This document shows, in pieces, positions 1 through 42,404 of a stretch of DNA of 42,404 nucleotides. Within the stretch, counting starts at the first letter, position 1; the number at the start of each line of letters is the position of its first letter. Made by a program: the position numbers and the translations under genes. Location: positions 1-42,404 of IMG/VR virus record IMGVR_UViG_3300027747_003556; one strand, 5' to 3'. This stretch comes from a virus. The notes beneath the pieces are model-generated. The model was not told where the DNA came from and searched no databases. It worked only from the letters and a program-made list of their open reading frames with translations.

Positions 1-965
1 TCCGAATCGAATGAAGAATGCTGGCCCGCGGCCGAGGTGGCGCAGTCGCCCGACCGCGTCTTGATGCTGTACTGCCCATTCGCCCCCGGCACCGGGTTTC
101 GCAGCGCTTTCGACCCGCGCAGTGGCAACGCGATCGGCCCGCTGCGCGACTGCCGCTTTGGCAACCACGCCACCAGCGCGTATGGCGGCACCACGGGCGG
201 CCCGCTGGGCCAGCACCTGACCAGCTGGCCCTATTTGCTGGACGCGGCCGACGTGGCCAGCGGCGCGGCCCTGCATCGGCGCATGTTCACCGCGCTGGGG
301 GAGGGCGGGCGCACCCTGGCCGAACTGAGCAAGGGCGGCAGCAGCACCTTTACCCAGACGGGCGTAACCACCAGCATATATGCCCGCGCGCTGGCCGTAG
401 TGCAGCGGCTGCACGATGCCTGCCGCGCGCTGCTGGGCCAGGATTACCTGATCGAGGGCTATGGCTGGCGCCAGGGCGAGGCCGAGTACAACGCCGGCAC
501 CACCCAGGCGCAGTGCCTGGCGCTGACTTCCGCGCTGTTCGCCAACAAGCGCGCGGATTTCGGCGCCATCACCGGGCAGGCGACGTTTCCGATTTTCGTG
601 GAGCAAATCGCGGGCGACGTGAAGGGCGGCGGCAACCCCGCGGCTCTGGCGCACCTGCAACTGCATGATCCCGCCAACGGGATCTACGTCATCGGCCCGA
701 GCTACGGCGAGCCGTTCAACGTCGCGGATGGCGGCACCGGCACCGCGCACCGCACCTGCTTCGGGCAGCTCGTCTGCGGCCAGCGATTCGCGCTGGCGCA
801 GCTGGAGGTAGAGGCTGGACGCGAGCCAAAATGGCTGCGCGTCGGCAGCGTGGTGCGCTACAGCGCGACCCAGGTGGATTTCATCGTCACCGGCGCCACG
901 GGTAGCCTGGTCAGCGACACCTCGCACTTCCCGGCGCCGGACAGCAACCTTGGTTGGACCGCGCA
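1..965 (+). repeat. Left copy of imperfect end-to-end repeat
   Basis: Aligns gap-free (offset 41439) with 41440-42404. I count about 58 mismatches by hand (about 94% identity). Bases 1-77 and 844-965 are identical to the other copy. Only 7 of about 322 residues differ. Confidence 0.9.
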
Positions 966-1335
966 TTCCACCAACGGCGGTAGCATCACCGGCGTGACGG
1001 TGCTGGCCGACAGGGTGCGGGTGACAACCTCGGCCGGGTTCGCCGGGGATGTGTCCTACGCCTGGCAGTTCCCCGGCACGATCGGCAGCACCACCACCAG
1101 CGTGGCCTGGACCGATGGGCAGATGGACCTGGGCTTGCCCTACGGCCTGCGCAGCGACGTGGATGCCAACGGCAACTCGGCCCCCTACACCCAGATCGTG
1201 GCCCCCCAGGCGGCGCATACGCCGGGCAGCTGGGGCACGATCCGCGACGGCTACGGCTACGCCTGCACCGGCCTGGTTGCGGGATTCACGCTGCGCAGCT
1301 GGTTGAGCGCGGGCAAGTGGACGCTGCCGGCATGA
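1..1335 (+). CDS. Tail receptor-binding protein with SGNH/sialate-O-acetylesterase domain, 3' part (variant A)
   Basis: The frame is open from base 1 with no start, so the 5' end is missing. The product is 444 residues of an esterase domain plus a beta-rich C-terminus. The block III motif WRQGE lies at 466-480, and a block V-like Asp (727) and His (748) precede a conserved FGQLVCGQRFA stretch, as in the SASA/DUF303 branch of SGNH hydrolases. The block I GQSN motif is absent here but sits just upstream of the homologous point in the gene at 40291, at 41416. If the window is circular, 40291-41439 joined to 1-1335 gives one 827-residue protein. Such esterases on phage tails typically deacetylate surface polysaccharide; that role is inferred. 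Its stop overlaps the next start (ATGA). Confidence 0.8.
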   Translation, partial: SESNEECWPAAEVAQSPDRVLMLYCPFAPGTGFRSAFDPRSGNAIGPLRDCRFGNHATSAYGGTTGGPLGQHLTSWPYLLDAADVASGAALHRRMFTALGEGGRTLAELSKGGSSTFTQTGVTTSIYARALAVVQRLHDACRALLGQDYLIEGYGWRQGEAEYNAGTTQAQCLALTSALFANKRADFGAITGQATFPIFVEQIAGDVKGGGNPAALAHLQLHDPANGIYVIGPSYGEPFNVADGGTGTAHRTCFGQLVCGQRFALAQLEVEAGREPKWLRVGSVVRYSATQVDFIVTGATGSLVSDTSHFPAPDSNLGWTAHSTNGGSITGVTVLADRVRVTTSAGFAGDVSYAWQFPGTIGSTTTSVAWTDGQMDLGLPYGLRSDVDANGNSAPYTQIVAPQAAHTPGSWGTIRDGYGYACTGLVAGFTLRSWLSAGKWTLPA

Positions 1336-1765: not shown

Positions 1766-3136
1766 ATGGCGCCTCCGTCCCGCCCCCGCGAATTGTTGCA
1801 GAGATACCTGGAGGCCTATGAGGAGGCCAAGCGCGCCGGCCGGGCGCCGCTGGGCGCCTATGTCGGCCAGGGCAAGCCGGGCTGTGTTTCGCATGTGGCC
1901 CAGGTGATGGGCACGCCGCTGTCAAACGCCCGCATCGCGCTGCTGGCGGCCGGCGTGCCGGAAAAAGACACGCTGCCGCCCGGGGAGGCGCTGCGGCGAT
2001 TCCTGGCCCAGCCGCCCGCGCCCGCACCGGCCCCCGCCCCGCCGCCCGTGCCACCCACGCCGGAGGAGCGCGCCGACGTGGCCCGGCTGAAGCGCGAACT
2101 GGCCGCCGCCCGCACCGCGCTGGAGCATGCCGACGCTGCCATGGCGCAGGACCAGGACCGCCGCAGCTTCGCGCGCCACCTGGCCGAGAACCCCATGCCC
2201 ACGCCGGAATGGGCGGTGCGCGTGCCGGCCGGGGAAGACAGCCCCGGCGTGCCGGTGCTGCTGCTGAGCGATTGGCATATCGGCGAGACGGTGGACCCCG
2301 CGCAGTTGCACGGCGCCAACGCTTTCAATGCCGAGATCGCCGAGGCCCGGGTGCGGCGCCTGCTGGACCGCGTGCTGCACTTGGCGTTTCACCACGTCAA
2401 GCACCCGCGCTATGCCGGCATCGTCGTGGTGCTGGGCGGCGATTTCGTCTCCGGCTGGCTGCATGAGGAGCTGTTCCGCAGCGACTGGTGCGCGCCGACC
2501 ACGGCGGCAAACTGGTGCGTCTCTCGGCTGCACGCCATCCTTGCCCGCCTGGCCGCCGCGTTCGGCCGCGTGCATGTGGTGGCGGTGGATGGCAATCATG
2601 GCCGTCTGACCAAGAAGCCGCTGGTGAAGGGTGGCGCCACGGCCTGTTTCGATAACCTGATCTACGAAGCCCTGGCCGACCGGCTGCGCGAGGATGCGCG
2701 GCTGACCTGGGACATTCCGGAATCAGGCGACACTATCGTCCAGGTGGCCGGCACGCGGCTGCTGGTGATGCATGGCCATAGGTTGGGCGTGAAGGGCGGC
2801 GATGGCATCATTGGCTCTCTCGGCCCCATCACCCGCGGCGCCATCAAGACCGGCCGGGCAGAACGCAGCATCGGCCGCGATTTCGACGTGCTGGTGCTGG
2901 GGCACTATCATCAATCCATCTGGCAGCCGGGCGCCGGCATCGTCGTCAACAACAGCCTGAAGGGTTACGACGAATACGCGCGGAACGAGTTGCGCGCGCC
3001 GTTCTCCACGCCCTCGCAACTGCTGTTCTTCTGCCACCCGCGCTTCGGCCCGAACCTGCCATTCGACATTTTCCTGGAAGACCGGATGGCGCGCGACCCG
3101 GTGCGGTTTGTCGCCCTGGCGGAAGCTGGCTCATGA
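1766..3136 (+). CDS. Calcineurin-like metallophosphoesterase with N-terminal helical domain
   Basis: A 456-residue protein with a CAGGAG ribosome site before ATG 1766. The catalytic part begins near residue 160 and holds the full metallophosphoesterase metal set: DWH (169-171), GGD (224-226), GNH (276-278), HGH (336-338) and GHYH (379-382). Residues 1-75 form a helical, HTH-like region, followed by a Pro/Ala-rich linker and a coiled coil (about 95-140), suggesting a separate binding module. Members of this superfamily cut phosphomonoesters, phosphodiesters or nucleic acid; the substrate here is unknown. Its place between the tail fibre and lysis genes is unusual for a nuclease-type enzyme. 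It overlaps the next gene by ATGA. Confidence 0.8.
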   Translation: MAPPSRPRELLQRYLEAYEEAKRAGRAPLGAYVGQGKPGCVSHVAQVMGTPLSNARIALLAAGVPEKDTLPPGEALRRFLAQPPAPAPAPAPPPVPPTPEERADVARLKRELAAARTALEHADAAMAQDQDRRSFARHLAENPMPTPEWAVRVPAGEDSPGVPVLLLSDWHIGETVDPAQLHGANAFNAEIAEARVRRLLDRVLHLAFHHVKHPRYAGIVVVLGGDFVSGWLHEELFRSDWCAPTTAANWCVSRLHAILARLAAAFGRVHVVAVDGNHGRLTKKPLVKGGATACFDNLIYEALADRLREDARLTWDIPESGDTIVQVAGTRLLVMHGHRLGVKGGDGIIGSLGPITRGAIKTGRAERSIGRDFDVLVLGHYHQSIWQPGAGIVVNNSLKGYDEYARNELRAPFSTPSQLLFFCHPRFGPNLPFDIFLEDRMARDPVRFVALAEAGS

Positions 3137-5065: not shown

Positions 5066-6190
5066 TTACTCCGCTTTTCTCCGCCGTTTGCCAGTGTTTG
5101 CCAGGCCATTTGCCGGGCGTGGTTTCAGCTTCGCCACGGCGTTTTCCGCCAGGCTCTTTTGATCGGCGCCGCGGGTGTATTCTTCCTGGCTGGATAGCGT
5201 CTCCCAGCCCATCGCGGCGTTGATCTCCTTCCCCGTCGCGCCGCGCTCCGCCAGCATGGTGGCGCGCAGCTTGCGCAGGCCGTGCAGGTTCAGCCCGGGG
5301 CGCAGCTTCAGCCGGGCCACCTCGGCGCCGATGCGCAGGTTCAGGTATTCGCGCGACCATGGCAGCCCCCGGGCCGAGGTCAGGATCGTCGCGGCCGGCG
5401 TTTCCCGCAGCTTGTTTTCGGCGCGCCAGGCCTCCAGCTCCGCCCGCAGCGCGGTGCTGACCGGCAGGCGCAGCGGCGCCAGGCCCTTCGCCTCTCGCCG
5501 GCGCTTGGTCTTTTCAGGTTGCAGCCAAATGGCGGCGCCGTCGAACGCGCCCCAGGTCATCGTCACCAGGTCGCCGCGGCGCTGGCCGATGTGATACGCC
5601 AGCACAATCGCGCGCCGCGCCGGCTCGGCAAAGTCGCGCATGGCCAGTTCAGCCTCGGCTTCGGTCCAGGCCAGGAAATGCCCACCCGGCAGCGCCTTGG
5701 CGCGGGCCAGGCAACTGTACTCCAGGTGCCCGCGCTCCACGGCCCAACTGAGCACCGCCGACAAGCCAACCTGGAACATATTGGCCGCGCCCGGCCCGTG
5801 CTGGCCGGCGATGGCGTCGCGCAGGTCCAGCAGCTCCGCGCGCTTCAGCCCGGCGGCCTGGCGGCAGCCCCAGGCGGGCACCTCCACAGCGCGCAGGTAG
5901 CGGTCGCGCGCGGCCTTGGTGCGGGGTGCCAGGGCGGCATAGGCGGTAGAGGCGCGCCAGCGGTCCATCAGCCAGCCCAGCGTGCCTTCGGCATACCTGG
6001 CGGCGGCGGTGTTGCGGGCGGCGGCCAGGGCGGCGGCAAAGCCCGGCTCGGTCGGGTCCGGCAGCCGGGTGTTGGTCTGCCGGCAGTACCAGTAGGTAGC
6101 CTGGCTACCGTCCGCCAGCCGGGCGCGTACGGGGCGCACGCCCTTGGGCCTTGCGACCGAGGGCGGCCAGAGCGTCGGCGATTGCGGCAT
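5066..6190 (-). CDS. int: Tyrosine-family integrase
   Basis: A 374-residue site-specific recombinase. The catalytic set is visible: Arg204 in GQRRGDL, Lys in PEKTKR (227-229), HxxR in HGLRKLR (His303, Arg306) and the nucleophile Tyr338 in SSQEEYTRG. The N-terminal part has an arm-binding/SAM-like region (about residues 60-160). I chose ATG 6190 because GGAGG precedes it by 8 bases; an in-frame ATG at 6268 would lie deep inside the upstream Xis-like gene. The first 85 bases overlap that gene. It should integrate and, with Xis, excise the prophage. Confidence 0.92.
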   Translation of the reverse strand: MPQSPTLWPPSVARPKGVRPVRARLADGSQATYWYCRQTNTRLPDPTEPGFAAALAAARNTAAARYAEGTLGWLMDRWRASTAYAALAPRTKAARDRYLRAVEVPAWGCRQAAGLKRAELLDLRDAIAGQHGPGAANMFQVGLSAVLSWAVERGHLEYSCLARAKALPGGHFLAWTEAEAELAMRDFAEPARRAIVLAYHIGQRRGDLVTMTWGAFDGAAIWLQPEKTKRRREAKGLAPLRLPVSTALRAELEAWRAENKLRETPAATILTSARGLPWSREYLNLRIGAEVARLKLRPGLNLHGLRKLRATMLAERGATGKEINAAMGWETLSSQEEYTRGADQKSLAENAVAKLKPRPANGLANTGKRRRKAE

Positions 6191-6443
6191 CTGAGGAGCC
6201 TCCGGCGCCAGCTTCGGCCGCGGGCTGGGCCTGGTCAACGGCGACGGCGCCGGGCCTGCGGGATTCAACCCAGGCGTCCAGGTCTTCCCGCACCCAGCCG
6301 ACGCGGCCGGCAGTCAAGCGGATCGGCGCCACCACGGGCCGCACCTCGGCCCGGAACGTGCTGGGCGACAAGCCGAGGTAGTAGGCTGCGGCCCGTTCGG
6401 GCAGCACGCGCGGCGGCCAGGCAAAGGTGGCGCCGTCTGGCAT
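6105..6443 (-). CDS. AlpA/excisionase-like winged-helix protein
   Basis: A 112-residue protein with an MerR/AlpA-type fold in residues 14-62: RVLPERAAAYYLGLSPSTF then a basic wing and GWVREDLDAWVESRR, the usual end of excisionase-like domains. The C-terminal 45 residues are low-complexity Ala/Arg-rich and lie over the integrase start. Location directly upstream of and overlapping int supports a role as the recombination directionality factor. A transcriptional regulator is the alternative. Confidence 0.75.
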   Translation of the reverse strand: MPDGATFAWPPRVLPERAAAYYLGLSPSTFRAEVRPVVAPIRLTAGRVGWVREDLDAWVESRRPGAVAVDQAQPAAEAGAGGSSDAAIADALAALGRKAQGRAPRTRPAGGR

Positions 6444-12172: not shown

Positions 12173-12643
12173 ATGACCGCCGGCTCGGCCCTGCCGGAGG
12201 TTGATGCCCGGGCGCTGCGGGTGCAGTGCAAGCTGGCCGTGGCCGGCGTGGGCGGGCCGTACAGCGCCAGCGTGGCGCTGGGCTATGCCAGCCAGGGCAA
12301 CATATCCGCGGCCACCGACCCCAACGACTGGGCCCGCTGGATGCGCGTGGACCACGCGGTGGTGCTGGACAGCCTGGCGCCGCATCCTTTCATCACCGCC
12401 TGCATGGCGCGGCTGCTGGGCTACCAGCTGGTGCGGCTGCCCGCGCCGGCCGCGTGCAGCGTGCGGGCGGTGGGGGAAATGCTGGGCAGCCTGGCGCCGG
12501 TGCTGGCCGCCGCGGCCGTGGCGCTGACCGACCACCGGATCTCGGAAGCCGAGCGCGCCGCCATGCTGCCGCAGCTGGAAGCGGCCATGGCCAGCATCGG
12601 CACCGCGCACGCCACCCTTTCCCAAGCCTGCCTGGAGGACTGA
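12173..12643 (+). CDS. CII-like (CP76-type) phage regulatory protein
   Basis: A 156-residue protein. The layout KLAVAGVGGPYSASVALGY, then SQGNISAATDPNDWARWMRV, a V-D-x-x-x-x-L segment and ITACMARLLGYQLVRLP follows the pattern of the CII/CP76 regulatory family in proteobacterial temperate phages. The rest is a long Ala-rich helix with ISEAERAAMLPQLEAA. ATG 12173 is preferred over GTG 12167; no strong ribosome site is seen. It likely helps set the lysis-lysogeny decision. Confidence 0.6.
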   Translation: MTAGSALPEVDARALRVQCKLAVAGVGGPYSASVALGYASQGNISAATDPNDWARWMRVDHAVVLDSLAPHPFITACMARLLGYQLVRLPAPAACSVRAVGEMLGSLAPVLAAAAVALTDHRISEAERAAMLPQLEAAMASIGTAHATLSQACLED

Positions 12644-12645
12644 CC

Positions 12646-13224
12646 ATGGCCCCGCCCATGCCCGTTGCCGTGCCCGGCGTCTCAACCCCAGGTGGACAAG
12701 CCCCCGCGCTGTTGACGCTGCTGGAGCGGCGCTTCCGTGGCGTTCGGGTGGACCTGCACGGCTGGACGCCCGATGCGGTGCAGGCGCTGCGGGACATGTG
12801 GGCGGAAGGCGTGCCCACCCGCGCGATCGGCCGCGTGCTGGGGTGTGGCAACAACGCCGTGGTGGGCAAGGCGCATCGGCTGAAGCTGGAAGGCCGGGTC
12901 AACCCGGTGACGCAGCTGGCCGCGGCCCGCCCGCCGCGCGGCACCAAGCGCCTGAGCTACGCGGCGCCGGCCCAGGCTCGCCCAGCCCAGCCCCGCCCCG
13001 CCGTCGCGCCGGCTGCGCTGACCACCACCCCCGCCGAGCCGCCCGAGCCGGCCACGCAGTTCCGCCGGCGCGAAGCAGGCGAATGCTGCTGGCCCCTGTG
13101 GGGCATGCAGGAACGCGGCACGCCCGGCTATGGCCGGTTCTGCTGCGCCCCGGCGCCGGGTGGCCAGGCCTATTGCCCGGAACATCGGGCCATCGGCACC
13201 GTGCGCCGGCAGGTGGCGGCATGA
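12646..13224 (+). CDS. gcrA: GcrA-family cell-cycle regulator
   Basis: A 192-residue protein, slightly longer than cellular GcrA (about 173 aa). The N-terminal DNA-binding part (about residues 38-88) reads GWTPDAVQALRDMWAEGVP, IGRVLGCGNNAVVGKAHRLK and EGRVNP, as in GcrA. The C-terminal part has ECCWPLWG and FCC...YCPEH, matching the conserved Cys/Trp-rich sigma-interacting region. GcrA acts with sigma70 RNA polymerase at promoters carrying CcrM-methylated GANTC sites in Alphaproteobacteria. A phage copy could redirect host transcription or drive its own early or late promoters. It starts 2 bases after the CII-like stop. Confidence 0.88.
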   Translation: MAPPMPVAVPGVSTPGGQAPALLTLLERRFRGVRVDLHGWTPDAVQALRDMWAEGVPTRAIGRVLGCGNNAVVGKAHRLKLEGRVNPVTQLAAARPPRGTKRLSYAAPAQARPAQPRPAVAPAALTTTPAEPPEPATQFRRREAGECCWPLWGMQERGTPGYGRFCCAPAPGGQAYCPEHRAIGTVRRQVAA

Positions 13225-17325: not shown

Positions 17326-18009
17326 GTGGCTGTCACGGTAAGCGTCCGCTCAGACCTGGATAAGTTCGCCCGGCAGCTGGACGCCATGGCGCGGGGGCAG
17401 TTGCGGTTCGCTGCCTCGCAGGCGTTGACCAAGCTGGCGCGCGAGGTGGAGACCGACACCCGCACCAAGTTCATGCCGGCGCAGTTCGACAAGCCGGTGC
17501 CGTTCACCCAGCGCGCCTTCCGCGTGCTGCCCGCCAGCAAGGCGGCGCTGCGCAGCGAGGTTCGGTTGAAGGACCAGCAGCAGCAGGCCGGGTATGGCAA
17601 GCTGCTGGCGCTGGAAGAAGAGGGCGGCACGCGTAACCCGGGCTCGCCACGGTTCGGCAAGGGCAAGGGCAGGGCGCTGGTCACGCCGAACGCGGTGAAG
17701 CGGAACGCCTACGGTAATATGCCGTTCCGCGCGGTGCAGAACCTGCTGGGGCAGCGCGGCGTGTTCCTGGCCAAGCCGGGCGATGTTGTCCACAAAGGCG
17801 GCGCCAAGCTGAAGTGGGGCGGCATCTACAAGCGGGTGGGGCGTGGCGACAAGGCGCACCTCAAGCTGATGGCAAGTTTCTTCGGCCGGGTGCAGTACAA
17901 GCCGCGCTTCCCCTGGCATGCGCATGTGTTGGGCATGGCAGCGGTGCGCTTCCCGGTGCTGCTGCGCGATGCGATGGCGCTGGCCATGGCCACGGCGCGC
18001 CGGCGGTAG
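17326..18009 (+). CDS. Phage structural protein candidate (gp10/tail-completion-like), 227 aa
   Basis: I chose GTG 17326 because GGAG precedes it by about 9 bases; the frame opens at 17272. The product reads VSVRSDLDKFARQLDAMARG then AASQALTKLAREVETDTR and PVPFTQRAFRVLPASKAAL, a pattern seen in neck or tail-completion proteins of myo- and siphophages. The middle has a Lys/Gly-rich patch and the C-terminus is basic. Such a gene normally lies after the capsid gene, so its place before terminase is odd. Family assignment is tentative. Confidence 0.5.
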   Translation: MAVTVSVRSDLDKFARQLDAMARGQLRFAASQALTKLAREVETDTRTKFMPAQFDKPVPFTQRAFRVLPASKAALRSEVRLKDQQQQAGYGKLLALEEEGGTRNPGSPRFGKGKGRALVTPNAVKRNAYGNMPFRAVQNLLGQRGVFLAKPGDVVHKGGAKLKWGGIYKRVGRGDKAHLKLMASFFGRVQYKPRFPWHAHVLGMAAVRFPVLLRDAMALAMATARRR

Positions 18010-18151
18010 GCCTGCGGCGTTTCACGGGTCCCTCCCGGCAGTTCCGACGACCGGGGGCATTTCGCACCCCGACATTCCCCCGAATTTTTCAACAAAAACA
18101 ACGCCTTCTGTTGACATCGCTGTTTACATCCGCCGCGCGGAGCCGCCATCC
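18010..18151. other. Non-coding, locally AT-rich region before terminase (candidate cos/pac or late promoter)
   Basis: A 142-base gap upstream of the small terminase gene. Bases 18081-18130 are far more A/T-rich than the rest and contain near-direct repeats TGTTGACA / TGTTTACA (18110-18127). TTGACA could be a -35, but the base run 17 downstream is GC-rich. In lambda-type phages the cos site lies just before Nu1, so packaging-site function is plausible. Confidence 0.35.
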
Positions 18152-18712
18152 ATGCCCGTCAACCTCGATGAGATGGCCGCCCTCCTCAGATGCAGCCTGC
18201 CCACCATGCGCAAGCTGGCAAAGCTGGAAGCCTTCCCCGTCATCGCCCGTGGCTCCCACGGCGTCCCCTGGCAACTAGACCCCGAGGCCGTTACCGCCTT
18301 CCTCCAAGCCCGCCGCGAAGCCGAAGCTGCCGCCGGCGCCGCCCGCGACGAAGCCCTGGCCCAGCTTTCCCTCCCTGAATCCATCCTCTCCGGCGACGAA
18401 GCCACGGCCTCCGCCGCCGAGCGCCTGAAGACCGCCCAAGCCATCCGCGCCGAAATCCTGAACGCCAGGGAAGCGGGCTTCCTGGTCCCCACCACCGACA
18501 TGCGCGCCCGCCTGGCCAGCGCCTGGCCCCCGCTCATGCAGTCCATCCTGGCCATGCCCCAGCAGCTCGGCCGCCGCCACAACTTGCCGGATGCCGTCGT
18601 CCGCGACGCCCGCCGCTACCTTGAGGAGCAACTGCGCGAAACCGTCCGCCTCCTGCAGGACCTCCTGCCGGACGACGCCGCGCCCGACGAACCCCATGGC
18701 GCGCCCCCCTGA
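18152..18712 (+). CDS. Terminase small subunit, Nu1/DUF1441-like
   Basis: A 186-residue protein. The N-terminal winged helix (LDEMAALLRCSLPTMRKLAK, then VPWQLDPEAVTAFLQARR) matches Nu1-type DNA-recognition domains. The long helical middle (DEATASAAERLKTAQAIRAE) and C-terminal helical region fit DUF1441-type small terminases. It should recognise the packaging site and recruit the large subunit, whose gene overlaps its end by 17 bases. Confidence 0.82.
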   Translation: MPVNLDEMAALLRCSLPTMRKLAKLEAFPVIARGSHGVPWQLDPEAVTAFLQARREAEAAAGAARDEALAQLSLPESILSGDEATASAAERLKTAQAIRAEILNAREAGFLVPTTDMRARLASAWPPLMQSILAMPQQLGRRHNLPDAVVRDARRYLEEQLRETVRLLQDLLPDDAAPDEPHGAPP

Positions 18713-20885
18713 ACGCCCCCGCTTCGCGCCTGCCGCCCGAATCCTGCGGGAAAGCCTGGCCGCGCTGTTGCCGCCGCAGCGCATCACGGTGGCCGACCAC
18801 GCCGCCCGCTATCGCTGGCTTCCTTCCGTCTCCGGCGGCCACCTGGTCCACTGGGATCACACCGTCGCCCCCTACCTGACCGAACCCATGGAGGCCCTGT
18901 CGGACGACGCGCACGACACGGTCGCCATCATCGGCCCCGCGGCCTCCGGCAAGACCATGGTGGCCGAGAACTGGGCGCTGCATAACGTGCACGCGGACCC
19001 GGCCGACATGCTCTGGTACCTGCACACCGACCCGGCAATTGAAACCTACGTCAAGGGCCGCATCGAACCGATGCTGGAGGCCCATGACAAGCTGATCGCC
19101 GACCGCCGCCACGGCCGCGACAGCGTCAACTTCAAGCGCTTCCACGGCGGCCGGTTCGAGTTCCTGTCGTTCACCCGGTCCAACCTCATCAACAAGCACG
19201 TCCGCAAGATTGTCGCGGACGAATACGACAACTACGACGCCAACCTGGGCAACCCGATGGCGCTGCTGAACCCGCGCCGCCAGGCCGCCAGCGCCGCCGG
19301 TGCGGACAGCAAAGTCCTGCTCATCAGCCATGCCGACCGCGCCGCCCCCATCGGCGCGAAAATCGAGGAACAAGCCGGCATCATGGCGGTCTATCTGGCC
19401 GGGGACCGCCGCACCTGGTGGTGGGCCTGCCCGCATTGCGGCGGCTTCAGCAGCCCCAACCCCGGCACGCCGCGCCACATGGCGCTGTGCTACCCGGAAG
19501 ACGCGCCGCTGGAGGAAATCGAGGCCAAGGCGCACCTGCTCTGCCCGGTTTCCGGCTGCATCATCGAGGAAAAAGACCGGATCGGCATGCTCGCCAGCGG
19601 CCGATGGGTCGGCCGGGGCGAGGAATGCGACGAAACCGGCCGCATCCTGGGTGAACGCGACCGGATGCGCATCGCCGGCTTCTGGATTGTCGGGACCATG
19701 TCGCCCTTCGTCATGGGTGGCATCGGCGCCCTAGCCCGGGCCCGCGAATCAGCCCGCCGCAGCGCCCTCATCAGCGGCGACGAACGCCCGCTGCGCGAAG
19801 TGATGGTGAAATCCTGGGGCGTGCCCTATGCGCCGCCCAAGCAGGTCGGCAGCATCGAGGCCGCCGAGCTCGCCGACCGCGCCCGGCCCGACCTGGCGCT
19901 GGGTATGGTGCCGGAAGGCTGCCGCGTGCTGCACACCAGCGTGGATACCCAGGCCAACCGCTTCGAACTGGTCACCCGCGGCTTCGGCCAGGGCCTCGAA
20001 AGCTGGATCATCGAAGCCCGCCACATCCCGGCCGCCCCGGCCACCAACCCGGCCGACTGGGATGACCTGATGCGCACCCTCGCGGCGCTGGAATACCCCC
20101 TGGCAGACGGCTCCGGCCGCGCCATGCGGGTCCGCGGCGCCATGTTCGACGCCATGGGCGAACCGGGCGTGACCGAACAGGCCTATGCCGCCTGGCGCCG
20201 TGCAAAAAAGGCCCGCCTGGTCCGCTACCTCGGCCGCATCAATGGCCGAGAGGTTCACAACATCATGCCATCAAAGGGCGCCGCCACGCCGCAGCACCCG
20301 GCGCTGGTGGTGGCCTTCGGCGATGGTGAACGCAAGGACCGCAAAGCCAGCGCCGGCCGTGGCGACGTGCCCCTGGCGCTGTTCAACCCCAACACCGCCA
20401 AGGACGCCCTGGCCGCCCAGTTGGCCATCGCCGAGCCCGGCCCCGGCGCGGTCAACTTCCCGCACGGCCTCCGCGCCGAACAGGGCGAGGCGCATCCCTG
20501 GTTCGAACAACTCGCCGCCGAGATCCGCGACAACCGCCGCGGCACCTGGGCCAAGAAGGCCGCGCACCTGCGAAACGAAGCCTGGGACCTGTTGGTCCTG
20601 GCCGGCGTCACGGCCCGGCTGCACGGCCTGCACCGCCTGGACTGGTCCCGCCCGCCAGGCTGGGCGGCAGAATGGCCCAACAACACCCAGATCGCGGCGC
20701 CATCGGTCCCGGGCGTCGCGTCCACCGCCGCCGGGGTGGTTACTCCTCCGCCAACCCCGGCGGCGGCCCCCATCGGCCGCCCCGCAACGGCGCCGGCACA
20801 CATCACGCCCGACCGGGCGCCGGCTGGCGTGGTCATCGCTGCCGCCAACGCGCCCCGCGCCACCCTGGCGCGGCGCCTGGCCTGA
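18696..20885 (+). CDS. Terminase large subunit, lambda GpA family
   Basis: A 729-residue protein. It shows the GpA-family order: Walker A GPAASGKT (80-87), KIVADEYDNYD (Walker B-like), a Cys-rich insert (CPHCGG near residue 245 and CPVSGC near 283), and a C-terminal nuclease part (VLHTSVDTQANRFE; RGAMFDAMGEPG). It should power packaging and cut concatemers. ATG 18696 is the first start consistent with the small-subunit overlap. The last 70 residues are a Pro/Ala-rich tail. Confidence 0.93.
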   Translation: MARPPERPRFAPAARILRESLAALLPPQRITVADHAARYRWLPSVSGGHLVHWDHTVAPYLTEPMEALSDDAHDTVAIIGPAASGKTMVAENWALHNVHADPADMLWYLHTDPAIETYVKGRIEPMLEAHDKLIADRRHGRDSVNFKRFHGGRFEFLSFTRSNLINKHVRKIVADEYDNYDANLGNPMALLNPRRQAASAAGADSKVLLISHADRAAPIGAKIEEQAGIMAVYLAGDRRTWWWACPHCGGFSSPNPGTPRHMALCYPEDAPLEEIEAKAHLLCPVSGCIIEEKDRIGMLASGRWVGRGEECDETGRILGERDRMRIAGFWIVGTMSPFVMGGIGALARARESARRSALISGDERPLREVMVKSWGVPYAPPKQVGSIEAAELADRARPDLALGMVPEGCRVLHTSVDTQANRFELVTRGFGQGLESWIIEARHIPAAPATNPADWDDLMRTLAALEYPLADGSGRAMRVRGAMFDAMGEPGVTEQAYAAWRRAKKARLVRYLGRINGREVHNIMPSKGAATPQHPALVVAFGDGERKDRKASAGRGDVPLALFNPNTAKDALAAQLAIAEPGPGAVNFPHGLRAEQGEAHPWFEQLAAEIRDNRRGTWAKKAAHLRNEAWDLLVLAGVTARLHGLHRLDWSRPPGWAAEWPNNTQIAAPSVPGVASTAAGVVTPPPTPAAAPIGRPATAPAHITPDRAPAGVVIAAANAPRATLARRLA

Positions 20886-32522: not shown

Positions 32523-33817
32523 TGGCCCTGTTCGACCTGTTCAGCCTGCCGACCTGGCGCGACTACCTGCGCCCCGCCAGCTTCCGCGGTGTGCCCTTCC
32601 ATGTCCGCGACCACCGCTTCACCGGCGGCCGGGCCGTGGGCGTGCACGTCTTCCCGCTGCGCGAGGAAATCGCCACGGAGGACCTTGGCGTCACGCCGAA
32701 GAAGTACGAGGTGACGGCCTACGTCATCGGCGACGATTACATGGTTGCCCGCAACGCGCTGGTGGACGCCTGCATCAACCAGCCCGGCGCCGGCCTGCTG
32801 GTGCACCCGTTCCTGAACCAGGTGCTGGTGCGCTGCGAGAACTGCTCCTTCACCGAAAGCCTGGCGGAAGGTGGCGTGGCGGCCTTCACCCTGGGCTTCA
32901 TCGAGGCCGGCGGGCAAAAGGCCTTCCTGCCGGAGCAGGACACCCAGGCCGCCTCCATCGCCGCGCTGCGCCAGGTGCTGCAACTGGCCCGCGCCGCCTT
33001 CGGCCTGGCCATGGGCATCCGCAACTGGTCGGCCTTCATCCGCTCGGCGTTCAAGTCGGCGGTCTCCAGCCTCGCCAGCGACCTGGCGGGCGGGTTGCTC
33101 GGCCTGCCGGGGCTGGACCCGGTCGGCATCGCCGAGAGCATTGCCGGGTTGGGCAGCGCTGACGTCAACAACCCCGAGGCGCTGTCCGCCGCCGTGGTCG
33201 CGCCGTTCCAGGCCGTGACCGATGCCGCCGCCGCGCTGCCCCTGCCGGCCGCCAGCGCCAGCGCCGCCGAGGCGGGCGCCGGCAGCAGCGCCGTCACCTC
33301 TCGCGGGGAGGAAAGCGCGCGGCAGGGCTGGGTCGGCACGGAACTGCTGCGCTGGGCCGGCTACGCCGTGCCGCCGGTGGCCAGCGCCGGCGCCGCCAGC
33401 CTGGGCACGGTGAACAGCAACAACGCCGCCCTGGCCGCCCTGGTGGCCGATGCCGCCGTGGCCAGCGCCGCCCAGGCCTTCCTGCAGGCCCGCTTCGCCG
33501 ATGCCGGCCAGGCCGAGGCCGCCTTCACCGCGCTGTCCGCTGCCATGGCGCAGCGCGGCGCGGCGGCGGCCGACCGTTTCCGCGATGACCTCTGGTCCGC
33601 CTGGCAGGTGGCCGAAGCGCTGGTGCAGCGGGACTTCAGCCAGCGCCTGCGGCAACTGCCCAGCTTGGGCAGCTACGCCCTGCCGCAGCCCATGCCCAGC
33701 CTGGTGCTGGCCCAGCGGCTGTATCAGGCACCCGCCCGGGCTGATGAACTGGTGGCGCTGAACGCCGCGCCGCACCCGATGTTCCTACCCGCCGCCGGCA
33801 AGGCCCTGAACGCATGA
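32522..33817 (+). CDS. Mu gpN-like tail/DNA-circularisation protein
   Basis: A 431-residue protein; ATG 32522 overlaps the tape-measure stop (TGATG). The N-terminus (WRDYLRPASFRGVPFHVRDH, then GRAVGVHVFPLREE, TPKKYEVTAYVIGDDY, INQPGAGLLVHP) matches the Mu gpN/DNA-circularisation family, which acts at the distal tube or baseplate hub and lies directly after the tape measure in Mu. The C-terminal part is Ala-rich and helical. Confidence 0.88.
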   Translation: MALFDLFSLPTWRDYLRPASFRGVPFHVRDHRFTGGRAVGVHVFPLREEIATEDLGVTPKKYEVTAYVIGDDYMVARNALVDACINQPGAGLLVHPFLNQVLVRCENCSFTESLAEGGVAAFTLGFIEAGGQKAFLPEQDTQAASIAALRQVLQLARAAFGLAMGIRNWSAFIRSAFKSAVSSLASDLAGGLLGLPGLDPVGIAESIAGLGSADVNNPEALSAAVVAPFQAVTDAAAALPLPAASASAAEAGAGSSAVTSRGEESARQGWVGTELLRWAGYAVPPVASAGAASLGTVNSNNAALAALVADAAVASAAQAFLQARFADAGQAEAAFTALSAAMAQRGAAAADRFRDDLWSAWQVAEALVQRDFSQRLRQLPSLGSYALPQPMPSLVLAQRLYQAPARADELVALNAAPHPMFLPAAGKALNA

Positions 33818-35424: not shown

Positions 35425-35895
35425 ATGGACCTCGCGCTGGCTTTCGACAACGCGCAGATGCGCGGCGACCTCGCTTGGGCGGATGCCGACCTGGCCACCG
35501 ATGCCGGGCTGCGCTCCGCCGTCATCATCAGCCTGTTCACCGACGCGCCGGCCGAGGCCGCCGAACCCCTGCCGGACCCGACCGACACCGACCGCCGCGG
35601 CTGGTGGGGCAACGCCTTTGCGCTGGAAGGTGAAACCGCCGGGCCGCTCGGCAGCAAGTTGTGGCTGCGGGTGCGCGCCTTCGCCACGGAAGCCACGCGC
35701 CGGCAGATCGAGGCCGATTGCGCTGATGCCCTGGTCTGGATGGTGCGGCAGGGCGTCGTCGCGGCGGTGGATGTCGGTTCCACCTGGCTCGCGCCCGGGC
35801 AGTTGCTGGTCACCATCGCGCTGCGCCGCACTGCCGGCCAGGCGGCGGCGGAACGCATCTTTGACTTCGCCTGGCGCGCCGAAGGAGTTCTGTAA
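35425..35895 (+). CDS. Baseplate wedge protein, Mu gp46 family
   Basis: A 156-residue protein, near the usual gp46 length. ISLFTDAPAEAAEPLPDPTD, then DRRGWWGNAFALEGETAGPL and GSKLWLRVRA are family marks. It is the gp25-like wedge element that connects sheath initiation to the baseplate. Its stop overlaps the next start (TAATG). Confidence 0.88.
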   Translation: MDLALAFDNAQMRGDLAWADADLATDAGLRSAVIISLFTDAPAEAAEPLPDPTDTDRRGWWGNAFALEGETAGPLGSKLWLRVRAFATEATRRQIEADCADALVWMVRQGVVAAVDVGSTWLAPGQLLVTIALRRTAGQAAAERIFDFAWRAEGVL

Positions 35896-36998
35896 TGCCA
35901 TTTGCCCGCCCCACGTTGGGCGCCCTGGTGCAGCAGACCTGGGCAGCCATGCTGGCGCAGCGCGCCGACCTGCGCACCGCCCTGCAAGCCGCCGTGGTCC
36001 GCGTGCTGGCCCGGGTGTTCGCCGGCTGCCTGCACCAGCTGTACGGCTTCCTGGACTGGATCGCCCGCCAGGTCATGCCGGGCGCGCAAGATGAGGAATA
36101 CCTGGCCCGCTGGTGCCGCATGTTCGGCATTGCCCGCGTCGGCGCCGTGGCCGCCGCCGGCAACTTGACCATTTTCGGCACCAATGGCGCCATCCTGGCC
36201 AGCGGCAGCAGTTTCACCCGGGCTGATGGCGCGCGCTTTGCCACCACCGCCGGCGCCACCATCGCAAGCGGCACCGCAACCGTGGCTGTGCTGGCCACCA
36301 CGCCTGGCAGTGCTGGCAATACCGATGCTGGCACCACGCTGTCCCTGGTGGTCGCGGCAACGGGCATTCAGGGCACCGCCACGGTGGCCAGCGGCGGCCT
36401 GACTGGCGGCACGGACCAGCAGTCCTTGGCAGACTGGCAGGCCGCGCTGGAAGCCCGTTTGCAAACTCCGCCGCAGGGCGGTGCGCCGGCCGACTACGTC
36501 GCTTGGGCCAAGCTGGTGCCCGGCGTTACCCGTGCCTGGGTCTATCCGCGCAACCGCGGTGTTGGCACGGTTGACCTTTGTTTCGTCATGGATGGCCGCA
36601 GCAACATCATCCCGCTTTCGGCTGATGTCGCGGCGGTGCAAGCCGTGATCGACGCCCGCCGGCCGGTGACGGCGGATTGCGTCGTCTTCGCGCCCACCGG
36701 CGTCCCCCGCACCGGCACCGTGACCGGCTTGTTGCCAAACACGCTGGCGGTGAAGACCGCGGCGCAGGCCGAGTGGAACGCGCAGATATTGCGCGACGGC
36801 GTGCCGGCCGGTGCCACGCTGTTGGGCACCGGCGGCACCATCATTGGCACCAGCGCGGGAACGCTGCGCTACAGCCGGCTGGACGACGCCATCAGCCGCG
36901 CGACGGATGAGGAAAGCCACACCCTGACGACCCCGGCGGCGGACATTTCGCCAAGCGCCGGGCAAATCTACACCCCCGGCACGCTGACCTTCGTATGA
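35895..36998 (+). CDS. Baseplate J-like protein, Mu gp47 family
   Basis: A 367-residue protein with FLDWIARQVMPGAQDEEYLA and WCRMFGIARVGAVAAAGNLT at the start, a central beta domain (FTRADGARFATTAGATIASG) and GGTDQQSLADWQAALEARLQ followed by GGAPADYVAWAKLVPGVTRA, all typical of gp47/baseplate J. It overlaps the next gene by ATGA. Confidence 0.92.
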   Translation: MPFARPTLGALVQQTWAAMLAQRADLRTALQAAVVRVLARVFAGCLHQLYGFLDWIARQVMPGAQDEEYLARWCRMFGIARVGAVAAAGNLTIFGTNGAILASGSSFTRADGARFATTAGATIASGTATVAVLATTPGSAGNTDAGTTLSLVVAATGIQGTATVASGGLTGGTDQQSLADWQAALEARLQTPPQGGAPADYVAWAKLVPGVTRAWVYPRNRGVGTVDLCFVMDGRSNIIPLSADVAAVQAVIDARRPVTADCVVFAPTGVPRTGTVTGLLPNTLAVKTAAQAEWNAQILRDGVPAGATLLGTGGTIIGTSAGTLRYSRLDDAISRATDEESHTLTTPAADISPSAGQIYTPGTLTFV

Positions 36999-40290: not shown

Positions 40291-42404
40291 ATGCCCAATG
40301 TCGTCGTCCAGATACTGACCGGCGCCGGCAACTGGGTTGCGCCGGCTGGCATCCTCAACGGGTCGGTGCTGGTCGAGGGCTGGGGGCCGGGCGGCGGCGG
40401 CGCCAGGGCAGGGCGCGCGGGCGGTGGTGCTGGCGGCGCCTATGCGGCCAAGACCGTCACCGTGGTAGCCGGCACCTCCTACCCCTATTCGGTGGGCACC
40501 GGCGGCGCGGCGCGCACCAACAACGGCCTGGGCAACCCCGGCTCGGCCGATACCACCTGGGGCAGCCCGGTGGTCATGCGGGCCGCGCTGGGCAATGGCG
40601 GCAGCCAGACGGCCGGCTCCCCGGCCCTGGGCGGCCTGGCCAGCGCCAGCCTGGGCGACACGGTCTTCAGCGGCGGCAATGCCGGCGACATCGCCGGCAC
40701 TGGCGGCAGCGGCGGCGGCGGCGCGGCAACCCCGGCCGGCGCCGGCAGCAACGGCGCCACGGCCAGCAGCATCGCTTCGGCTGGCGGTGCCAGCGGCGCC
40801 ACGGCGGGGGGTGCGGCCAATACTGCCGGCGGCAGCAACGCCGCGGGCGGCTCGGGCGGCGGCGGCAGCATCACCAGCACGGCGGCCGGCAATGGCGGTG
40901 CACCTGGTGGCGGCGGCGGCGGCAACGGCAACAGCCTGGGCACCACCGGCGCGGGCGCCGATGGGCAAATCCGCCTCACCTACACGCTGCAAAGCAATCT
41001 CGGCGTCTCGGCCACGCTGGGCGCCGTCACGGGTGCGCCCAGCCTGACCGCGCCGGCCGCGCTCGCGGTCTCCGCCACGCTGGGGCCGGTGACGGGCGCG
41101 CCCGCGCTGGGCGCGGTGGCCACGCTGGGTGTGGCGGCCACGTTGGGGCCGGTGACCGGCAACGTGACGTTGACAGCCCCGGTCGGGGTCAGCCGCAACC
41201 TGGCGGTCTCTGCCACGCTGGGGCCAGTTACTGGCGCGCCCAGCCTGACCGCGCCAGCGTCGGTGGGCGTGGCGGCCACGCTGGGGCCGGTGCTGGGCTA
41301 CGTGCCCCTCATCACCCGCGCACCCGCGGTCAGCGTGCCGCCCTACGCCTCTCCCAGCCCCTACCAGCCGGACTGGGCCAACCCCAACCGGGCCATCTGG
41401 GGCTATCTGCTGGACGGCCAGAGCAACGCCGCCGGCAACTCCGAATCGAATGAAGAATGCTGGCCCGCGGCCGAGGTGGCGCAGTCGCCCGACCGCGTCT
41501 TGATGCTGTACTGCCCCTTCGCGCCCGGCACCGGGTTCCGCAGCAGCTTCGACCCGCGCAGCGGCAACGCCATTGGCCCCCTGCGGGACTGCCGCTTCGG
41601 CAACCACGCCACCAGCGCGTATGGCGGCACCACGGGCGGCCCGCTGGGCCAGCACCTGACCACCTGGCCCTATCTGCTGGACGCGGCCGACGTGGCCAGC
41701 GGCGCGGCCCTGCATCGGCGCATGTTCACCGCGTTGGGCGAGGGCGGGCGCACCCTGGCCGAACTGAGCAAGGGCGGCAGCAGCACGTTCCCCCAGACGG
41801 GCGTGACCACCAGTATCTATGCCCGCGCGCTGGCGGTGGTGCAGCGGCTGCACGATGCCTGCCGCGCGCTGCTGGGGCAGGACTACCTGATCCAGGGCTA
41901 TGGCTGGCGCCAGGGCGAGGCCGAGTACAACGCCGGCACCACCCAGGCGCAATGCCTGACGCTGACCTCCGCGTTGTTTGCCAACAAGCGCGCGGATTTC
42001 GGCGCCATCACCGGGCAGGCGACCTTCCCCATTTTCGTCGAACAGATCGCGGGCGACGTGAAGGGCGGCGGCAACCCCGCGGCTCTGGCGCACCTGCAAC
42101 TGCATGACCCCGCGAATGGCATCTACGTGATCGGGCCGAGCTACGGCGAGCCGTTCAACGTCAGCGATGGCGGCACCGGCACCGCGCACCGCACGTGCTT
42201 TGGGCAGCTTGTCTGCGGCCAGCGATTCGCGCTGGCGCAGCTGGAGGTTGCCGCCGGGCGCGAGCCGAAATGGCTGCGGGTGGGCAGCGTGGTGCGCTAC
42301 AGCGCGACCCAGGTGGATTTCATCGTCACCGGCGCCACGGGTAGCCTGGTCAGCGACACCTCGCACTTCCCGGCGCCGGACAGCAACCTTGGTTGGACCG
42401 CGCA
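40291..42404 (+). CDS. Tail receptor-binding protein with Gly-rich domain, repeats and SGNH esterase (5' part, variant B; runs off window)
   Basis: Open from ATG 40291 to the last base (704 codons, no stop). Residues 1-230 form a glycine-rich adhesin domain (GAGNWVAPAGILNGSVLVEG, then long Gly/Ala runs). Residues 235-345 hold five ATLG-x-V-x-G repeats. The SGNH domain starts with DGQSNAAG (GQSN at 41416-41427, Ser about residue 378), and WRQGE recurs further on. The end is homologous to 1-965. Joined to 1-1335 it would make a complete 827-residue adhesin. Confidence 0.85.
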   Translation, partial: MPNVVVQILTGAGNWVAPAGILNGSVLVEGWGPGGGGARAGRAGGGAGGAYAAKTVTVVAGTSYPYSVGTGGAARTNNGLGNPGSADTTWGSPVVMRAALGNGGSQTAGSPALGGLASASLGDTVFSGGNAGDIAGTGGSGGGGAATPAGAGSNGATASSIASAGGASGATAGGAANTAGGSNAAGGSGGGGSITSTAAGNGGAPGGGGGGNGNSLGTTGAGADGQIRLTYTLQSNLGVSATLGAVTGAPSLTAPAALAVSATLGPVTGAPALGAVATLGVAATLGPVTGNVTLTAPVGVSRNLAVSATLGPVTGAPSLTAPASVGVAATLGPVLGYVPLITRAPAVSVPPYASPSPYQPDWANPNRAIWGYLLDGQSNAAGNSESNEECWPAAEVAQSPDRVLMLYCPFAPGTGFRSSFDPRSGNAIGPLRDCRFGNHATSAYGGTTGGPLGQHLTTWPYLLDAADVASGAALHRRMFTALGEGGRTLAELSKGGSSTFPQTGVTTSIYARALAVVQRLHDACRALLGQDYLIQGYGWRQGEAEYNAGTTQAQCLTLTSALFANKRADFGAITGQATFPIFVEQIAGDVKGGGNPAALAHLQLHDPANGIYVIGPSYGEPFNVSDGGTGTAHRTCFGQLVCGQRFALAQLEVAAGREPKWLRVGSVVRYSATQVDFIVTGATGSLVSDTSHFPAPDSNLGWTA
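41011..41298 (+). repeat. Five in-frame repeats encoding ATLGxVxG
   Basis: Repeat copies start at 41011, 41074, 41137, 41212 and 41275, a period of 63 bases (21 residues) with one 75-base spacing. They link the Gly-rich domain to the esterase. Length variation here would change fibre reach. Confidence 0.75.
41440..42404 (+). repeat. Right copy of imperfect end-to-end repeat
   Basis: The partner of 1-965. It begins inside the esterase domain just after GQSN-AAG and ends at the window edge at the base equivalent to 965. Confidence 0.9.

Follow-up and report, generated by a model that had tools for sequence, protein, structure and literature searches.

The 42,404-bp sequence analyzed here (IMG/VR record IMGVR_UViG_3300027747_003556; hereafter, the window) begins and ends in closely similar copies of part of a tail-fiber gene. 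Do these copies represent two alleles of one gene on a circular map, or two fiber genes that lie in tandem in one genome? The original prediction favored a genome of about 41.44 kb, either circular or permuted, that was broken at a population bubble. Our analysis supports that view through the end point of an independently assembled contig, the gene order of relatives, the 827-residue gene obtained by joining the ends, and a model of the assembly graph. With a probability of roughly 90%, the ends of the window are two alleles of the tip of a single fiber gene, and the window is the circular map (~41,439 bp) of a temperate phage opened at an assembly branch.

Results

The two ends of the window are diverged copies with identical flanks

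Positions 1 to 965 and 41440 to 42404 aligned without gaps (965 versus 965 bases), with 58 mismatches (93.99% identity) that begin at position 78 and end at position 843. Each copy on the plus strand thus consists of a shared 77-mer (1 to 77 and 41440 to 41516), a divergent tip segment (78 to 843 in allele A and 41517 to 42282 in allele B), and an identical right flank of 122 bases (844 to 965 and 42283 to 42404). When 40291 to 42404 was used as a blastn query, the only end-to-end match was this one (E = 0), the others being short internal repeats of the fiber shaft; the match is therefore not due to chance. Both copies are open in one common frame and differ at seven residues (A36S, S75T, T118P, E152Q, A174T, A242S, and E271A); the figures given in the original prediction are exact. 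Codon position 3 holds 46 of the 58 mismatches, and transitions (29 of 58) are as frequent as transversions. Across the divergent part, dN was 0.017 and dS was 0.29 (NG86), a dN/dS of ~0.06 that bears out the proposed purifying selection between the alleles and on account of which both tip versions look functional. At 58 differences per 766 bases, chance alone would produce an identical stretch of 122 bases with p ~7e-5 and a 77-base stretch with p ~0.002; inside the divergent segment, the longest identical stretch is 64 bases. Because runs as long as those of the flanks are improbable by chance, the identical flanks mark real boundaries rather than an effect of sampling.

Joining the ends restores one complete fiber gene

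The tail-fiber gene at the right end (40291 to 42404, plus strand) runs from its start codon to the end of the contig, where its 3' end is lost; its 704 translated residues include the allele B tip and match phrog_4201 (tail fiber protein; 1.8e-17) and PF21722 (Gly_rich_2; 7.2e-8). The 3' part of the same gene, with the allele A tip, lies at the left end (1 to 1335, plus strand; phrog_4201, 8.6e-22), where translation is open from base 1 to a stop codon at 1333 to 1335. One fiber-gene start and one fiber-gene end are all that the window holds, and joining 40291 to 41439 with 1 to 1335 yields a single stop-free frame of 827 residues. The joined protein comprises a glycine-rich N-terminal domain (PF21722), shaft repeats, a phrog_4201-type tip, and a C-terminal part. 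Taken alone, the left copy lacks a gene start, and it also lacks the putative nucleophile, since the serine of the GQSN motif (41422 to 41424, plus strand, by translation) sits upstream of the repeated part.

The gene product had been described as a receptor-binding esterase. Its identity as a fiber is upheld by phrog_4201, while assignment of the tip to the SGNH/SASA-type esterases is tentative: the match to PF03629 (SASA) that spans the joint is below the cut-off (E 0.0016; 18.6 bits versus 24.8), and the GQSN, WRQGE, and DGGTGTAH motifs of the putative domain were picked by eye. A single-sequence AlphaFold model of the fiber had a pLDDT of 31 and was unusable. The full fiber protein had no match among named phages at E 1e-5, and the tip alone gave only matches of 27 to 30% identity. 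Over the tip domain, the protein resembles phrog_4201 tail fibers and the tail fibers of Vibrio phage VvAW1 and Klebsiella phage TSK1, with an identity of only ~27% over about half of the queried part. A phmmer search against the PDB returned only chance matches to immunoglobulins, and a search for the fiber tip in 385 alphaproteobacterial genomes found no match.

Relatives carry the two ends of the window in continuous order

Within the window, the baseplate and fiber genes and the exonuclease gene sit at opposite ends. We used the J-like baseplate wedge gene (35895 to 36998, plus strand; phrog_6, 6e-57) as an anchor of gene order. Once the ends are joined, the first gene past the fiber gene encodes an exonuclease/metallophosphoesterase (1766 to 3136, plus strand; phrog_284, 3.3e-43), in an order conserved in relatives. 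Relatives of this exonuclease were found in 21 contigs, two of which also carry a baseplate J homologue, at 54 to 56% identity: 3300032265_003138 (42.8 kb) and 3300019776_000836 (44.7 kb). In both of these IMG/VR relatives, hub and wedge genes come first, a fiber region next, and homologues of the endolysin and exonuclease last, on one strand of one contig. This continuous order places window position 42404 before window position 1, which makes the window a permutation of a closed map. The same gene order speaks against unrelated host sequence beyond the two ends. The fibers of the two relatives are unlike that of the window. Their fiber regions contain no paralogous tandem fiber genes, which argues against two complete fiber genes (B, then A) in tandem in the present genome.

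An independent assembly stops at the same branch

A contig from another IMG/VR assembly, IMGVR_UViG_3300010334_000288 (23,461 bp), is the one other record in the collection that contains the shared 77-mer. It equals window positions 18056 to 41516 except for one single-nucleotide variant (SNV) at 33609 (T in the window and C in the contig), which is a difference between two assemblies and not diversity within one sample. The contig terminates on the final base of the shared 77-mer, and the independent assembly therefore breaks at the same branch. At a branch, the contigs of a de Bruijn assembler share an overlap of exactly k bases, and k = 77 is a standard setting of SPAdes. Run with k = 77 on a mixture of both versions, such an assembler stops at the shared 77-mer. 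Variation is also markedly uneven, with 1 SNV per 23,461 bases between the two records versus 58 differences per 766 bases between the two tips, and it is therefore localized to the tip.

A graph model accounts for the left edge and favors alleles over tandem genes

We built a compacted de Bruijn graph with k = 77 from real sequence pieces. When two alleles were placed on one circle, the model gave two 920-base edges that start at window position 1 and one long edge that ends at position 77. A plain bubble predicts k bases after the last difference, whereas the observed right edge is 122 bases, not 77. When a silent change at position 966 was assumed in the second allele, the model returned a 122-base edge (844 to 965) ending where the window ends; the contig in fact stops one base short of position 966, the third position of a His codon (CAT). 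In the model, a right edge of this length needs such a further branch, which is an assumption. The contig would then follow allele A, the 122-base edge, the long edge, allele B, and the 122-base edge once more. An assembler path halts on meeting an edge that it has already used.

A genome with two complete fiber genes in tandem, that is, a duplicated adhesin locus that could switch by recombination, behaved differently in the graph. With the whole gene duplicated, the 5' part of the fiber gene (a 1,226-base edge) became the sole predecessor of allele A. Because this predecessor is unique, a contig from a tandem locus should begin upstream of the shared 77-mer, in contrast to the observed start exactly on it. 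The tandem arrangement accommodates the common frame of the two copies and the apparent purifying selection on both, and the contig by itself leaves the sequence after 42404 and before base 1 unseen. A resolvase-type invertase and a reverse transcriptase were looked for, however, and neither was found; together with the graph and the relatives, this makes tandem genes very unlikely. The more specific proposal, in which both tips reside in one genome as a tandem pair under purifying selection and recombination switches or blends the tip, is marginally less credible again.

Least likely of all is that allele B comes from a second, co-occurring phage with only part of the fiber gene in common and was wrongly chained on by the assembler. 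Mosaic fiber genes are common (PMC7468147), and allele B is tied to the common genome solely by the path of the contig across the shared 77-mer. Nevertheless, upstream of the 77-mer the path is unbroken in two assemblies, and the 122 bases that follow allele B are identical to this genome, so any donor would need matching sequence on either side; a search of the collection for the shared 77-mer found no second phage.

Two further mechanisms were rejected. For a diversity-generating retroelement, there was no reverse transcriptase (PF00078 was without a match), and the differences, instead of being adenine-directed as such an element would make them, fall across all bases, mostly in codon position 3. 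For invertase or shufflon switching, no resolvase was found, and inverted repeats near and around the gene amount to no more than GC-rich matches of 70 to 90%.

A probable cos site lies next to the terminase genes

The first base of 3300010334_000288, window position 18056, opens a probable cos terminus (18056 to 18068, plus strand; GGCATTTCGCACC), and a homologous motif begins two other contigs. Contig 3300043414_001351, from a phage with a 60% identical large terminase subunit (TerL), begins at the base homologous to 18056. A scan for GCATTTCGCACCSCG returned 62 places; in three contigs, each from a different metagenome, the motif starts one base in from the end. With respect to [G/A]GCATTTCGCACC, all three contigs have the same first base, exactly one base before GCATTTCGCACC, a coincidence with a chance p of ~5e-9, and two of the three continue into terminase genes. 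The window has a terminase small subunit frame whose start codon is uncertain (17918 to 18712; phrog_57, 3.7e-17) and a gene for a large subunit of the lambda gpA type (18591 to 20885; PF05876, PF20454, and phrog_15), both on the plus strand. Because the small-subunit frame opens before the terminus, the true start is probably downstream of 18056. Position 18056 is a defined terminus beside the terminase genes, as expected for cos-type packaging, and most likely the cos site.

A conserved element, in which GGGTCC(C/T)(T)CC is followed after ~25 bases by GGGCATTTCGCACC, lies just upstream of the terminase genes. Its sites are window positions 18020 to 18100, L096 (1 to 60), the end of L099, and L121 (3725 to 3815), as well as L040 (3690 to 3780) and L049 (about 3030) on the reverse strand. 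Similar elements occur in a prophage with 49% TerL identity, between a minor-tail-like gene and TerL (GGGTCC...GGGCATT), and in contig 3300047494_000192 (GGGTCC...GGGTATTTCGCACC). The element is probably a cos site common to a group of alphaproteobacterial phages. The terminus motif GCATTTCGCACCCCG was also seen near position 1048 in L102 (3300042350_002167) and near position 486 in L065 (3300042881_002187), in both cases not far from an imperfect inverted partner, GCATTTCGCCCGG.

Terminal redundancy, or direct terminal repeats, was rejected as an explanation of the similar ends: one would not expect repeats within one virion to differ, and the genome probably has its terminus elsewhere, at 18056.

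The phage is temperate and probably has an alphaproteobacterial host

The window encodes a tyrosine integrase on the minus strand (5066 to 6268; PF00589 at 5159 to 5623, 51.6 bits, above the cut-off) and a cI-like repressor. On the basis of these two genes the phage is considered temperate, the circle being its cos-joined form. Neither the terminus at 18056 nor the integrase was anticipated in the original prediction. A phage-encoded GcrA-like cell-cycle regulator is also present (12226 to 13224; PF07750, 2.4e-17). This regulator and the prophage relatives, which were found in Alphaproteobacteria, point to an alphaproteobacterial host.

Discussion

The ends of the window are most likely two alleles of one fiber tip, and the favored account is as follows. 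A cos-packaged, temperate, contractile-tailed phage with a genome of ~41,439 bp was assembled as a circle or as a cos-joined concatemer, and the assembler opened the circle inside the fiber gene because the sampled population carries two tip versions. These versions would reside in different genomes as alleles, rather than in one genome as paralogues. The tip segment was probably exchanged with a related phage by homologous recombination, since the identical flanks fit a recombined patch of this kind. The tip would bind a surface polysaccharide and might also de-esterify it; the two alleles would then serve slightly different or differently decorated hosts, with purifying selection keeping both tips functional.

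Comparable variation has been described. Bellas et al. (2020; PMC7468147) reported metagenomic islands in which near-identical phage genomes have co-existing homologous gene variants. In their Cryophage, a single large ORF has tail-fiber and GDSL-lipase domains, both of which are variable, and the variants are co-present in one metagenome. According to these authors, assembly halts in regions of this kind, and a break there seemed to explain many of their incomplete contigs. The phage described here likewise combines a near-identical core with co-present fiber-gene variants. It differs in degree, with 6% of bases and 7 residues distinguishing the alleles here versus <90% identity between the variants of Bellas et al., and in evidence, which comes from contig ends here and from read recruitment there. 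Mizuno et al. (2014; PMC3909814) described metaviromic islands of marine phages, in which genes for host recognition, and recognition regions inside genes, carry most of the variation. Our phage resembles these in having its variation in a host-recognition region, whereas their evidence was under-recruitment of reads and concerned different phages and a different habitat. With regard to the fiber itself, Possum gp66, a polysaccharide-deacetylating SGNH fiber (PMC9569702), likewise has an SGNH/SASA-type domain (putative in our case) followed by a C-terminal domain; its activity was measured, whereas the domain call made here is below threshold and drawn from sequence. G7C gp63.1 is cited in PMC9569702 as an SGNH polysaccharide-deacetylating tail fiber.

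Collectively, these data indicate that the window represents a complete, closed phage map that was cut artefactually, and that it contains the entire genome together with 965 bases in a second version. Its duplicated ends should be interpreted neither as terminal repeats nor as a pair of adhesin genes. We suggest as a rule that an approximate terminal repeat that has an exact edge of k-mer length and lies in a fiber gene points to a circular genome with co-existing receptor-binding alleles. The variation between the tip alleles is real but ordinary phage variation, a phenomenon already published (Bellas et al. 2020), and it adds a further case in which variation is concentrated in the host-recognition tip of a phage that is otherwise near-identical.
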